64,000 nucleotides of DNA from Candidatus Saccharimonadota bacterium. GTDB lineage: Bacteria; Patescibacteriota; Saccharimonadia; Saccharimonadales; Saccharimonadaceae. This document shows, one piece after another, positions 13,750-27,251 of this stretch. Made by a program: the position numbers and the translations under genes. Position 1 is the stretch's first letter, and every line of letters starts with the position of its first letter. The DNA is taken from NCBI GenBank assembly GCA_030531645.1, contig JAUNNB010000006.1:1-64000 (forward strand). The letters run 5' to 3'. The notes under the pieces were generated by a model. The model did no database searches. It had not been told where the DNA came from and saw nothing but the letters and a program-made list of their open reading frames with translations.

Positions 13750-14373
13750 ATGGATAATCAGGTGGACCCAACAAACAATCCTTCTCAGGAAACCTCAGCT
13801 GCAGAATTAGCAAATAGCACCTCTGAGGAAACTTTGCGAAGGACGGCGAGCAATGTAAGCGAGGAGCCCCGCGACGGCGGGCGCGACGAAGCTGGTTCCG
13901 AAGAGGTCGCTATTGCTAATTCTACTTCCGAGGCAGCCGGTTCCGAAGGAGCTGTTGCTTCCGATTCTGTCCCTTTGTCTGGTTCCATCATGTCCAACTC
14001 CACCAACGTCACCAAATACAGCGAGCTCACCACCAAAACCATCATCACCTCCATCGTCACCTGTCTAGCTCCACTCGCTATCCTCATCTTCCTCATTGTC
14101 TCTATCTTCACCTCCCCAGATCTCAACTGCGCCGAACCTCGTTGTGGATACAGCTGGGCCACATATCTTACCTTCCTCCTCATTAACACTCCGCTCTCCA
14201 TCGCTTGTATCATCGCTCAAGCTATCACCAAAAACAAATTCACTCAGCTCACCAAAATCATCGACAAGCCCAACACCAAAGTTATGACTCTTGCCAGAGT
14301 CTCCCTCATTATCACCATCCTCGTCCTCATTCTACCTCTCGCCTTCCATGTCTTCACATCAATAGGGAAATAA
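13750..14373 (+). CDS. Three-to-four-helix membrane protein with an inserted disordered repeat
   Basis: 207 residues, family unknown. The first 85 residues are Ser/Glu/Ala-rich and disordered and contain the segment EETLRRTASNVSEEP, encoded by an 84-bp element that recurs in the PrgI-like gene at 26.77 kb. Membrane segments follow: TIITSIVTCLAPLAILIFLI, a second around TYLTFLLINTPLSIACIIAQ and a third near SLIITILVLILPLAFHVF. Two cysteines sit between the first two (NCAEPRCGY). It ends 1 nt before the MYG1-family start, so the two are probably co-transcribed. Confidence 0.7.
   Translation: MDNQVDPTNNPSQETSAAELANSTSEETLRRTASNVSEEPRDGGRDEAGSEEVAIANSTSEAAGSEGAVASDSVPLSGSIMSNSTNVTKYSELTTKTIITSIVTCLAPLAILIFLIVSIFTSPDLNCAEPRCGYSWATYLTFLLINTPLSIACIIAQAITKNKFTQLTKIIDKPNTKVMTLARVSLIITILVLILPLAFHVFTSIGK
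13825..13908 (+). repeat. 84-bp in-frame repeat element, copy 1
   Basis: 77 of 84 bases match copy 2 (26772-26855). It is read in the same frame in both genes. The internal hairpin is CCCGC-GACG-GCGGG; see findings. Confidence 0.85.
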
Positions 14374-19757: not shown

Positions 19758-20234
19758 TTATTCGTCCGTACTTGGAACTGGGTCCTCCGTAGGAGTCTCC
19801 TCGCTACTTCCTCCAGCCGAGCCACCACCAGTGCCAGCACTTCCTGGATCACCCAAGGCTGCATTCACAGCAAAGTTCACGATTGTATAAGCCAGCAGCA
19901 CAACCAAGAGGCCAACGATACCACCAATGATTGTATCCTTAGCTTTCTTAATCTTAGCAGCATCGCCAGTTGCAGTAATATATGTAAAACCACCGTAGAT
20001 AACTACAACCACTGCTACTAGACCCAACACACCAGTTGCTACTGCAATCAAGTTATCCGTAGCTGAGAACAGGGACTGATCCTTTGGTGTATTACATTCC
20101 GCCACAGTCTTAGCCGATTCACCAGAATGGACAGTGCCTTCTGGACAAGTAACATCTGCATAGGTCGGCGTTGCAATTGCCACCGCCCCTGCGAGAGCTA
20201 GCACTGCCGAAAGTATCATAGTCTTAATTTTCAT
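19758..20234 (-). CDS. VirB2/TrbC-like pilin (paralogue 2)
   Basis: 158 residues. Signal peptide (LSAVLALAGAVAIATPTYA), a Cys-containing stretch (VTCPEGTVHSG, ECNTP), two membrane helices around GLVAVVVVIYGGFTYITATG-DAAKIKKAKDTI, and a Gly/Ser/Glu-rich tail of 30 residues that the other copies lack. Own TATAAT promoter and AAAGGAG site upstream, own terminator downstream: a separate transcription unit, which would allow different dosage from the neighbouring pilins. Confidence 0.75.
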   Translation of the reverse strand: MKIKTMILSAVLALAGAVAIATPTYADVTCPEGTVHSGESAKTVAECNTPKDQSLFSATDNLIAVATGVLGLVAVVVVIYGGFTYITATGDAAKIKKAKDTIIGGIVGLLVVLLAYTIVNFAVNAALGDPGSAGTGGGSAGGSSEETPTEDPVPSTDE

Positions 20235-20275
20235 TTTTTCTCCTTTACCGTATTATATCATATCTATCGTGATAA

Positions 20276-20300
20276 AAAAACTCCCCCTTGAGGGGGGAGT
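20276..20300 (-). terminator. Terminator of pilin paralogue 3
   Basis: ACTCCCCC / GGGGGAGT with a long minus-strand T run. Confidence 0.85.
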
Positions 20301-20314
20301 TTAATCGTCTATTA

Positions 20315-20740
20315 TTATTTATCGACTTTACCGCCAAAGACGCTCGTGAGAACGAAGTTGACAATTGCGAACGCAAGAAGCGAAATCACAAGACCGATAA
20401 CACCGTAAAGGATAGTATCCTTAGCTTTCTTGACCTTAGATGGATCACCAGCTGAAGAAGTATACTGGAAACCACCGTAGACAATCATCACAACAGCTAC
20501 GAGACCGATGATACCGATAAGAACGTTGATGATGATGTTAACAATAGTCATAAGGTTATTCTGGTTGTTGGCATTTTCCATACCCTTACCACATTTTGAG
20601 TAATCATCCTGCTTGGTGCCATCTGGGCAGTAAATACTACCGTTAGTAGCAGCGAAAGCGTTGCCAGTAGCAATTGCACCCATAGCGAGCACGCTTGCGG
20701 TACCGAGAGCCATAGCTTTAATTGTGTTTGAAATCTTCAT
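20315..20740 (-). CDS. VirB2/TrbC-like pilin (paralogue 3)
   Basis: 141 residues. Signal peptide ending NAFAA, then IYCPDGTKQDDYSKCGKG (two cysteines), and two membrane helices with GLVAVVMIVYGGFQYTSSAG-DPSKVKKAKDTI. It has its own TATAAT box about 30 nt upstream and a strong terminator downstream. Its clean consensus promoter and stop signals suggest this may be a highly expressed major subunit (inference). Confidence 0.75.
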   Translation of the reverse strand: MKISNTIKAMALGTASVLAMGAIATGNAFAATNGSIYCPDGTKQDDYSKCGKGMENANNQNNLMTIVNIIINVLIGIIGLVAVVMIVYGGFQYTSSAGDPSKVKKAKDTILYGVIGLVISLLAFAIVNFVLTSVFGGKVDK

Positions 20741-20810
20741 TTCTTTAAGTTCCTTTATTATTTAGTTTGATTATACCATATTGTTTTTGCAGTGCCAATA
20801 GTTTTTTAGG

Positions 20811-21269
20811 CTATTCACTCCCTGAAGAGCCGTCCACCATTTGGTTAGCATCACTCTTCACAGCACCCGAAACCATGCTTACAATGGCGAACGAAAGTAC
20901 CGCCACCAACACACCAATCACAGACCATGTAATCGCAGTTTTGGCCTGTTTCAACTTACCAGGATCACCCTGAGCAGTCATATAACGATAGCCGCCCACA
21001 ATCAAGAATACCACTGCCACCAGACCTGCAATACCAATCGCACCCTGGACAATCGCAAGGCCAATCGTCGTCACTTGCCTATTCTCGCCACAACCTGCGG
21101 CAGCCTTCTGGTATTCATCTAGGTCGCCATTGTCGCAGACTTTGCTAGTGTCATTAAACCCAGCTGCTTCTACACCAACCACACGGCCCATACCCAAGGT
21201 AAACACCGTAAGTAGCGCCAACATAATATATTGTGCTTTCTTGATCAAAGTTGATTTTCTTTTTACCAT
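20811..21269 (-). CDS. VirB2/TrbC-like pilin (paralogue 4)
   Basis: 152 residues. Signal peptide (YIMLALLTVFTLGMG...), VCDNGDLDEYQKAAAGCG with two cysteines, and helices around GLVAVVFLIVGGYRYMTAQG-DPGKLKQAKTAI. Third gene of the operon 22059-20811, 17 nt after the previous stop, with GGAG upstream of the ATG. Its loop motif DPGKLKQAK is closest to copies 5 and 6. Confidence 0.75.
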   Translation of the reverse strand: MVKRKSTLIKKAQYIMLALLTVFTLGMGRVVGVEAAGFNDTSKVCDNGDLDEYQKAAAGCGENRQVTTIGLAIVQGAIGIAGLVAVVFLIVGGYRYMTAQGDPGKLKQAKTAITWSVIGVLVAVLSFAIVSMVSGAVKSDANQMVDGSSGSE

Positions 21270-21286
21270 TTTACTCCTTTTCTATT

Positions 21287-21607
21287 TTATTCAGCCGGCG
21301 TCCTATTAGTAACCGCCACTACAAAGTTCGTAATACCTGCAGCAATTAACACTACCACCAAGCCAATCACGGCATAAGCAATCGTATGAGTTGCCTGTTT
21401 AATCTTGCCAGGTTCACCCTGAGCCACACCATAACTAATACCACCATAAACGATGAAACCTGCCGCTACTAGGCCAGCCAAAGCATACACCCAGTTCAAT
21501 ACGCCAGAGACTACCTGGCCAGTCGTAAGGCTAGCGGAATTATCTGCTGGCAAGTTATCTTTCCAGTCCGCAACATATTTAATTACAAATTTTAAACAGT
21601 CTTTCAT
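21287..21607 (-). CDS. VirB2/TrbC-like pilin without signal peptide (paralogue 5)
   Basis: 106 residues, the shortest copy. The start (GGAGGA 2-4 nt upstream, right after the previous stop) gives MKDCLKFVIKYVADWKDNLP, which is no signal peptide, then two helices with GLVAAGFIVYGGISYGVAQG-EPGKIKQATHTI. It may insert by its internal helix only. Second gene of the three-gene operon. Confidence 0.72.
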   Translation of the reverse strand: MKDCLKFVIKYVADWKDNLPADNSASLTTGQVVSGVLNWVYALAGLVAAGFIVYGGISYGVAQGEPGKIKQATHTIAYAVIGLVVVLIAAGITNFVVAVTNRTPAE

Positions 21608-21615
21608 TTTCCTCC

Positions 21616-22059
21616 TTATGAACCTGTCGCCGAATTAAGTATTGTAATAATCGTATTTACAATCACTGTTGCAAGCAGTGCTATCACCAAACCGATAATA
21701 GAGTTAATCAAAGTTTTCTTTGCAACGGCCACCTGTCCAGGATCACCTTGAGACATAATATATTTAAAGCCACCATATACTATAAAGCCTAGCGCCAAGA
21801 CGCCAACGACCACTGTTAAATCATAAGAAAGGTTCAAGATAATCTTCCAAATCATCTTGGTTGTAGCATCATCATCACCTTTTGCTGGCATTTTAATCTC
21901 ACAACCATTCTCCTTATCAAGACCTGCATACCAAGGCCTAAGACCCATCACAAAGTCACTACAAGTTTCACCATCGGCATAAACAGAGGTAGGTACAGCA
22001 ACTGTCATCGCCGCTCCACCAACTAATACCGCAAATATTATCGCAAGAATTTTCTTCAT
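21616..22059 (-). CDS. VirB2/TrbC-like pilin (paralogue 6)
   Basis: 147 residues from ATG 22059, 6 nt after a TATTAT box; the frame extends 6 codons further but into the promoter. Signal peptide (ILAIIFAVLVGGAAMTVAVP ... YAD), cysteines CSDF and CEIK, and two helices with GVLALGFIVYGGFKYIMSQG-DPGQVAVAKKTL. First gene of the operon with copies 5 and 4. It is divergent from the VirB6-like gene, with only about 110 bp between them. Confidence 0.75.
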   Translation of the reverse strand: MKKILAIIFAVLVGGAAMTVAVPTSVYADGETCSDFVMGLRPWYAGLDKENGCEIKMPAKGDDDATTKMIWKIILNLSYDLTVVVGVLALGFIVYGGFKYIMSQGDPGQVAVAKKTLINSIIGLVIALLATVIVNTIITILNSATGS

Positions 22060-22112
22060 AACCCAATAATACCACATTAGGGAATTGGCCGCAAGAATTG
22101 CACAAAAAAGGG

Positions 22113-26123: not shown

Positions 26124-27251
26124 ATGGCACAATATAAAGTCCCTCAGGACGTCGAGGCCGAAGATCGTTTGCTTGGCCCGTTCACATTTCGCCAATTTGT
26201 ATATCTTATGATTGGGGTCGGGTGTGGCGCAGCATGTTGGGGTTTGGCTCAACTCTTTCTTCCTCTCGCGATTATTCCACTTCCTTTTGCTATCTTTTTC
26301 ATTGTCTTAGCTTTACCACTTAGAAAAGATCAGCCAATGGAGACTTATCTTGCTGCCGTTGTTAGTTTCCGCCTCAAACCAAACAAGCGTCTCTGGCAAG
26401 CCGGTCAGAGGGAAACTATGATTCTTATCACCGCTCCAAAACAAGTTGAAAAATCTCGCACTCGCGATATTACCGAAGACGAGGCTTCTCACCGTCTCTC
26501 CTTCCTCGCCAACCTCGTCGATACTGAAGGTCAATCCATTCGTGGCGTCGCCGCTCAGAGTTCTATGAAGGAAGAATATGTCGCCGAGGCTAACCAAATC
26601 GACGATATCCTCGAAGCCAATAATGAAACTATCGACCGTATCATCGCTCAAGAGCAGGCCGAGCGCCATGCGGAGTTGGTCGCCAACATGCGCAACGCCA
26701 TCGCCGCCACCGACAGCGTCATGAACCCAGGCACACCTGGCACAACCTCAGAATTTACAGACGGTGCTTCCGAGGAAACTTTGCGAAGGACGGCGAGCAA
26801 CGTAAGCGAGGAGCCCCACAACGGTGGGCGCGACGAAGCTGATTCCGAGGAAGTCACCGTTGTAAATTCCGGCTTTACTCCGGTATCCCAGAACTTCACT
26901 CCAGTCTCAGCCCCAGCCCAAAACATCGCTCCAGTCGAACAAACCAGTTTCGTAGATCATAATATGCTTCGACAAGCTGCCATCGAACAGCAAAAGCAAA
27001 ATCTCGCTTCTAATACCGAGTACTCTATCCAAACTATCGCTGCCGAAGCAAACCGTATCGCCAAGTCCGAGCCGGCTAAGCCCGACCCTACTACTTTCCC
27101 GATTCCGCATTCTTACACTCCGCCAGTTCCAGAAAGCTTACAACAACCTACTCCACCGCCAGCACCTACCAGTTACGAAGAACTCGCGAGACAAAGCCTC
27201 GCCAACTACACACCAGGACAAGCAATATTTACACCAGGAGGAAAGAACTAA
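26124..27251 (+). CDS. PrgI-family (VirB3-like) T4SS protein with a long disordered tail
   Basis: 375 residues. The PrgI domain is residues 1-110: QYKVPQDVEAEDRLLGPFTF (family start), two membrane helices (YLMIGVGCGAACWGLAQLF, IPLPFAIFFIVLALPL) and LRKDQPMETYLAAVVSF. PrgI/VirB3 sits with the VirB4 ATPase at the inner membrane. The remaining 260 residues are a low-complexity tail; residues about 216-243 are encoded by the second copy of the 84-bp repeat. Usual PrgI proteins are about 110-150 residues. Its stop abuts the next ATG. Confidence 0.85.
   Translation: MAQYKVPQDVEAEDRLLGPFTFRQFVYLMIGVGCGAACWGLAQLFLPLAIIPLPFAIFFIVLALPLRKDQPMETYLAAVVSFRLKPNKRLWQAGQRETMILITAPKQVEKSRTRDITEDEASHRLSFLANLVDTEGQSIRGVAAQSSMKEEYVAEANQIDDILEANNETIDRIIAQEQAERHAELVANMRNAIAATDSVMNPGTPGTTSEFTDGASEETLRRTASNVSEEPHNGGRDEADSEEVTVVNSGFTPVSQNFTPVSAPAQNIAPVEQTSFVDHNMLRQAAIEQQKQNLASNTEYSIQTIAAEANRIAKSEPAKPDPTTFPIPHSYTPPVPESLQQPTPPPAPTSYEELARQSLANYTPGQAIFTPGGKN
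26772..26855 (+). repeat. 84-bp in-frame repeat element, copy 2
   Basis: Matches copy 1 at 77/84 bases. Its hairpin is CCCAC-AACG-GTGGG, with a compensatory base-pair change relative to copy 1. Confidence 0.85.

Follow-up and report, generated by a model that had tools for sequence, protein, structure and literature searches.

The window, the whole stretch of 64,000 nucleotides that was analysed, carries two copies of a short repeated segment in two otherwise unrelated genes, one for a membrane protein and one for a protein associated with type IV secretion systems (T4SS). The sequence-only reading had named the latter PrgI-like, and a Pfam match (PF12666, E 1.5e-13) confirmed this assignment. 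The reported identity of 77/84 bases between 13825-13908 and 26772-26855 was obtained again on recounting. In the shuffled window, the best match to copy 1 anywhere reached 37/84, and the 60-mers flanking the two copies are 33-43% identical, approximately background. Both segments are read in the same frame and encode, as claimed, the peptides EETLRRTASNVSEEPRDGGRDEAGSEEV (copy 1) and EETLRRTASNVSEEPHNGGRDEADSEEV (copy 2). The described stem change from CCCGC/GCGGG to CCCAC/GTGGG is present and keeps the stem. The extent of 84 bp was drawn too narrowly: the segment is real and forms the centre of longer hairpins of 121 and 119 bp (Table 1). The outer arms differ between the copies and pair with themselves, AGAATTAGCAAATAGCACCTCT with AGAGGTCGCTATTGCTAATTCT in copy 1 and GAATTTACAGACGGTGCTTCC with GGAAGTCACCGTTGTAAATTC in copy 2, while the cores are identical at 72 of 77 positions. 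Folding energies are -55.4 kcal/mol (z -5.2) for copy 1 and -50.1 kcal/mol (z -5.3) for copy 2; the fold of either copy was reached by 0/200 shuffles. Next to the PrgI-like and VirB4-like genes lie, at positions 19758-22077, five consecutive genes for small membrane proteins with two helices each, related to one another (GLVAVVxxVYGGxxY...GDPxKxKxAKxTI); they look like a cluster of VirB2-like pilins belonging to a type IV secretion system.

Table 1. Hairpin elements and host genes in the window
Feature	Positions	Strand	Basis
Whole hairpin element, copy 1 (121 bp)	13803-13923	+	Fold; R1 model match G000:C8:13816-13910, E 7e-22
Left outer arm, copy 1, locus-specific	13803-13824	+	Pairs with 13902-13923, one bulge
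Conserved core, copy 1: tandem GA/GA internal loop, three-way junction, P2 hairpin, P3 hairpin CCCGC(GACG)GCGGG	13825-13901	+	72/77 identical to copy 2 core; architecture common to relatives
Right outer arm, copy 1	13902-13923	+	Complementary to left arm
Host gene, copy 1: 207-aa membrane protein, disordered N-terminal part	13750-14373	+	ORF list; no Pfam match
Whole hairpin element, copy 2 (119 bp)	26751-26869	+	Fold; R1 match G000:C8:26763-26856, E 9e-22
Left outer arm, copy 2	26751-26771	+	Pairs with 26849-26869; sequence unrelated to copy 1 arm
Conserved core, copy 2: P3 stem CCCAC(AACG)GTGGG	26772-26848	+	Compensatory change relative to copy 1
Right outer arm, copy 2	26849-26869	+	Complementary to left arm
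Host gene, copy 2: PrgI-family (T4SS-associated) protein, 375 aa	26124-27251	+	PF12666, E 1.5e-13

The hairpins belong to a multicopy family. At E<1e-8, the genome of the window (771 kb; G000) contains seven copies, three genic and four weaker intergenic ones. On another contig, an ABC-transporter ATPase carries the third genic copy in its C-terminal tail, with 98% identity along 83 bases. All three genic copies have the core in common, not the outer arms, and use the same frame. The intergenic copies L066-L069 (G000:C2:65776, C7:52133, C7:19017 and C6:135132) lie close to gene ends, where they might in addition terminate transcription or influence RNA stability. A weak remnant (REEVVSEEVVASD), possibly degenerate, was noticed in dnaX of the same genome, the gene for the DNA polymerase III gamma/tau subunit (L004, G000:C6:74157-74186).

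The search for further copies that had been proposed for this genome and its relatives was made with a covariance model, R1, which was built from 14 copies and covers one element family. Genomes were searched and sampled piecewise. The genus consists of gut Saccharibacteria, mostly from ruminants; at E<=0.01, R1 matches 155 of its 174 genomes, with up to at least 24 copies per genome, a lower bound as 24 candidates per genome were scored. Across the order (247 genomes), the only matches outside the genus are in two genomes, both of one sister genus. A pattern scan of named genomes, not aimed at Rickettsia, gave at least 118 loci; among the matches listed, all records are Candidatus Saccharibacteria, mostly from ruminant guts. 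The phages and plasmids searched yielded no match to the element, and no Rfam family matches it. Two pattern matches on viral contigs (L362 and L363) were discarded, one having a 21-nt partial model match and the other none.

The fold is constant among copies. An element of about 115-121 bp consists of a core of about 71-77 nt and an outer stem of about 22 bp with a sequence particular to each locus. The outer stem is followed by an often present tandem GA/GA internal loop, an inner stem of 4-5 bp and a three-way junction with two hairpins, of which P2 varies and P3 is strictly conserved (GC-GA-G-GA-GCCCCG..CGGGCGC-GA-C-GA-A-GC). Pairing of the outer stem is about 95% or more up to about 21 nt, with few exceptions. 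A single unpaired base in the left arm, usually 12-15 nt from its inner end, was found in 69 of 88 copies (window of 8-18 nt); often the right arm, too, has an additional base, closer to the core. Apart from a weak inner consensus, YYTTTC/GAAAG, the arms have no common sequence. Pairs from different loci with cores 98-100% identical (about 71 nt) have arms with identities of about 0.45-0.86, mostly 0.5-0.7. Where the cores are 92-99.9% identical, arm identity averages 0.6 in non-orthologous pairs, against a shuffled baseline of 0.49, and 0.75-0.78 in orthologous pairs. Other core families exist (SEVTTENEG, SEPGKAR and TERPSPVTTGARERSE types). Further families of in-frame hairpin inserts were observed at IleRS loci L111-L180 and TruB loci L181-L230, encoding peptides such as SEVTTENEGASPVTTG, SEPGKARSSA..SPVATG, ITERPSPVTTGARERSE and DALLTRRTSSTA. 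At IleRS, 36 of the 48 long inserts fold with z below -4, and so do 21 of the 29 extended regions of TruB.

Genic copies are exclusively in frame. The model gathered 92 copies blind to ORFs, and copies inside an ORF of more than 150 aa were classified as genic. This applies to 82 copies, of which all 82 are open and in frame, 63 in sense and 19 in antisense orientation, using five of the six frames. The other ten comprise nine copies between ORFs and one at a locus edge inside IleRS. The four intergenic copies of the window's genome have no open frame at all, hence openness is not intrinsic to the element. Host genes include IleRS, named by NCBIfam, as well as ValRS, LeuRS, TruB, MiaA and a TlyA-like methylase, named by recognised motifs. 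No domain in Pfam or NCBIfam matched the inserts.

Insertion sites are polymorphic among relatives, a variation that the earlier reading had proposed to examine. The copy in the PrgI-like gene is private to its own genome among 30, as the orthologous loci of 29 relatives show no R1 match. In 69 IleRS genes, two sites each carry an insert of at least 12 aa in 24 genomes and are short in 45. The long inserts belong to several unrelated families, with different families in different species, and the IleRS tree, calculated with the insert columns left out, requires at least 22 changes at each of these two hot sites. The six family-a carriers at one of them, site A, require 6 changes on this tree, the same as with shuffled labels. 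TruB contains a similar hot spot, empty or differently filled among species. Between the genomes of two species with about 95% identity at the compared loci (G056 and G191), the ORF of the TlyA-like gene differs in length, 248 aa versus 283 aa, by exactly 35 codons, corresponding to one hairpin. No target-site duplication was seen at this pair, and other pairs were too divergent. The same two genomes show intergenic insertion differences of 116, 110, 101 and 62 nt (region G191:C8 L421:3204 versus G056 L412:4847, plus L441/L402), some of them with hairpins or repeats of neighbouring sequence. An automatic scan of both genomes for long hairpins was too strict and returned mostly shared ones.

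Compared with empty orthologues, the net insertion amounts to 18-43 aa (median 30), while a whole hairpin corresponds to 38-40 aa. As this length is not fixed, the exact element ends are uncertain. An inverted duplication of the target, with only an arm and the core inserted, is one possible origin; it predicts an additional 31 to 33 aa everywhere, the observed range being 18-43 aa, with 36-37 aa at ValRS sites. Palindromic remnants at some empty sites (L212 and L230 in TruB; L136, sister of the filled L118, L165 and L180 in IleRS) are read as footprints of loss. Pre-existing palindromic targets were set aside, short of strict exclusion: canonical TruB and IleRS are without palindromes, and where a few empty alleles do have them, they resemble footprints.

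At IleRS site A, the element core is conserved beyond host synonymous sites. Among the six family-a copies, identities are 89-99% in the core, 68-95% in the arms and 35-51% at host fourfold sites, which are saturated. Recombination that moved the entire site horizontally was rejected as an explanation, as flank identity shows no rise. The pairing covaries. Nine base pairs changed on both sides versus 3.2 in shuffles, a number reached in 0/500 shuffles of these six related sequences, a count that is not to be read as a probability. Both-side changes occupy 13 cells versus 4.0 expected, and every slid register was worse. The hairpin at this site is either under constraint at the nucleotide level, or converted in place, or the site is repeatedly re-invaded. 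Retention of the core in place over saturated divergence is unexpected for a dead selfish copy and requires recurrent re-insertion, conversion or function.

Mismatches in the arms have a polarity. G-U and A-C were scored equally and read on the element's own strand. Sense copies contain 43 G-U versus 21 A-C (p 0.008), antisense copies 25 G-U versus 3 A-C (p 3e-5). Since the preference is not reversed in antisense copies, a strand-specific intermediate, RNA or single-stranded DNA (ssDNA) of the element, is favoured over a function in the mRNA; the strand that carries the G-U pairs speaks against the latter. Strand-biased mutation could account for part of the G-U excess.

The copies probably constitute a family of mobile hairpins of this Saccharibacteria genus, small and non-autonomous elements in which the core spreads, the arms are locus-specific and in-frame copies are tolerated. 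The suggestion of a small selfish or functional element is thereby supported, and the two observations that would have spoken against it, a lack of further copies and the same placement in all relatives, turned out otherwise; a selfish or near-neutral mobile hairpin is the best reading of the compared sequences, from which we infer movement. The conserved core of about 71-77 nt would be copied to new loci, probably as a folded single strand (RNA or ssDNA) in the element's own orientation. Copies landing in frame in surface-exposed or disordered loops would be tolerated and translated, those between genes would likewise be tolerated, and copies landing otherwise would be purged by selection. 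The outer arms may be made anew at insertion, by snap-back or template-switch synthesis, and afterwards be kept complementary by hairpin-directed template switching. Orthologous arms are conserved over saturated divergence and copies with identical cores elsewhere differ, which suggests that arms change at transposition and not by gradual drift. A two-part heredity is proposed tentatively: what passes between loci might be the core alone, folded as a single strand with fixed polarity, while at each target the insertion might build its own paired outer stem of about 22 bp, through an undescribed snap-back mechanism that is possibly driven by a host polymerase and uses no transposase.

No cognate transposase tracking the element was found in scans of 100 genomes for Y1_Tnp and RVT_1. 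A RAYT transposase was rejected as mobilising enzyme, for Y1_Tnp (PF01797) occurs in 3/100 genomes, and neither the window's genome nor the copy-rich ones are among them. RVT_1, indicative of a reverse transcriptase, is present in 60/100 genomes and absent from the window's genome and the copy-rich G036, G055 and G162, and this candidate was rejected as well. Reverse transcriptase ORFs in the genus often have a length near 380-400 aa.

Purifying selection on core and pairing would also be expected if the hairpin, as RNA or DNA, had been recruited by the host for regulation, chromosome structure or a role at the protein level. The conservation of core and arms next to saturated host synonymous sites, the compensatory changes and the presence in 155 of 174 genomes agree with such a recruitment. 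However, the genes that host the element have unrelated functions, and in relatives they are mostly without it (at each of the two sites, 45 of 69 IleRS genes have no long insert). Copies use five reading frames as well as both orientations, and the preferred pairing is that of the element strand and not of the host mRNA. On these grounds, a host function is rather improbable. The proteins would remain unaffected if splicing took the insert out of the mRNA, as with an intron, or if the ribosome jumped over it, as in bypassing of the Magnusiomyces type. Stable hairpins within essential, conserved enzymes fit this idea, and conservation in place could mirror the need for correct removal. Yet removal would need neither the lack of stops nor the kept frame found in 82 of 82 genic copies. 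The four intergenic copies of the same genome without any open frame and the G-U preference on the element strand, even where the host mRNA is the opposite strand, are further arguments against removal, which is considered very unlikely.

An explanation by vertical inheritance assumes a few ancient insertions per gene and many losses that left palindromic footprints, with little or no recent movement. Short palindromes or remnants at some empty TruB and IleRS sites would be accounted for, but not cores with 98-100% identity at unrelated loci, the occupation of one site by different element families or a PrgI copy that is private among 30 genomes; this history is quite unlikely. A domain or linker duplicated between two proteins, thus ordinary shared protein sequence, would agree with the common frame of the three genic copies in the window's genome. 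It is refuted by the five frames and both strands used in relatives, the intergenic copies and the conservation of the hairpin at the nucleotide level count against it too, and it retains hardly any plausibility.

In nematomorph mitochondria, long inverted repeats stay paired in translated genes, and template switching has been proposed for their upkeep (PMC6649704). Those palindromes are host coding sequence without an inserted core, whereas the Saccharibacteria element is a conserved core inserted at many loci. REPs have a length of 20-40 bp, a tag at one end and a tie to a Y1 transposase. Palindromic repeats of the GTAG- and CGTC-tagged REP/RAYT systems occur genome-wide, some of them within ORFs (PMC3733652). 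The Saccharibacteria element differs in its length of about 118 bp; no tag was seen on it, and Y1_Tnp occurs in only 3/100 genomes. Bacterial MITEs (RUP, ERIC, Correia) are small non-autonomous inverted-repeat elements with stable folds (PMC2229807). Unlike these, the element has no conserved terminal inverted repeat, the arms of non-orthologous copies being near the shuffled baseline even with cores 98-100% identical; no parent transposon is known, and no target-site duplication was seen at one close pair. Translational bypassing elements of Magnusiomyces mitochondria are described, where PMC6649704 cites them, as palindromic inserts scattered among protein genes. They are not translated, in contrast to the genic copies in Saccharibacteria, which are without stops or frame shifts.

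Protein-coding palindromes have been a curiosity of Rickettsia and Wolbachia since 2000. A peptide encoded by a Rickettsia palindromic element (RPE) is reportedly tolerated in an active enzyme, guanylate kinase. We know of no mobility mechanism for these coding palindromes. The elements of Rickettsia and Wolbachia have about 100-150 bp, form long stem-loops and are located between genes as well as in frame in many conserved genes (PMC2229807; PMC3767692). Orthologues with RPE-type inserts at the same locus have been reported (PMC3767692), as has the loss of repeat identity with time (PMC6649704). The analogy to RPE drawn in the sequence-only reading holds for behaviour: size (121 and 119 bp), hairpin, and in-frame genic (82/82) besides intergenic copies are alike. 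No sequence relationship to RPE was found in scans of protein families (Pfam, NCBIfam) and RNA families (Rfam). The Saccharibacteria element works like RPE, a likeness of behaviour and not a demonstrated membership in the RPE family. No description in Saccharibacteria or CPR was found in the open literature, subscription papers and preprints being outside this scope.

Several features set the element apart from RPE. Its hosts are CPR bacteria, those of RPE Alphaproteobacteria, and the matches listed were all from Candidatus Saccharibacteria in a scan that did not target Rickettsia. Its fold is more elaborate, being built of two parts, an invariant core and locus-specific arms. Its sites are polymorphic between species, with different families at one hot site, and its pairing is upheld by compensatory change. 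The inserts explain odd stretches of 30-40 residues in essential Saccharibacteria enzymes and are a warning to annotators and structural biologists that these are not conserved domains. In comparison with Rickettsia and Wolbachia, the phenomenon is met here in another lineage of bacteria whose genomes are reduced, and in a far greater number of genomes. Sites are polymorphic and several families compete for the same hot spots, so that comparing genomes makes it possible to test how elements are inserted and lost and how their arms form.
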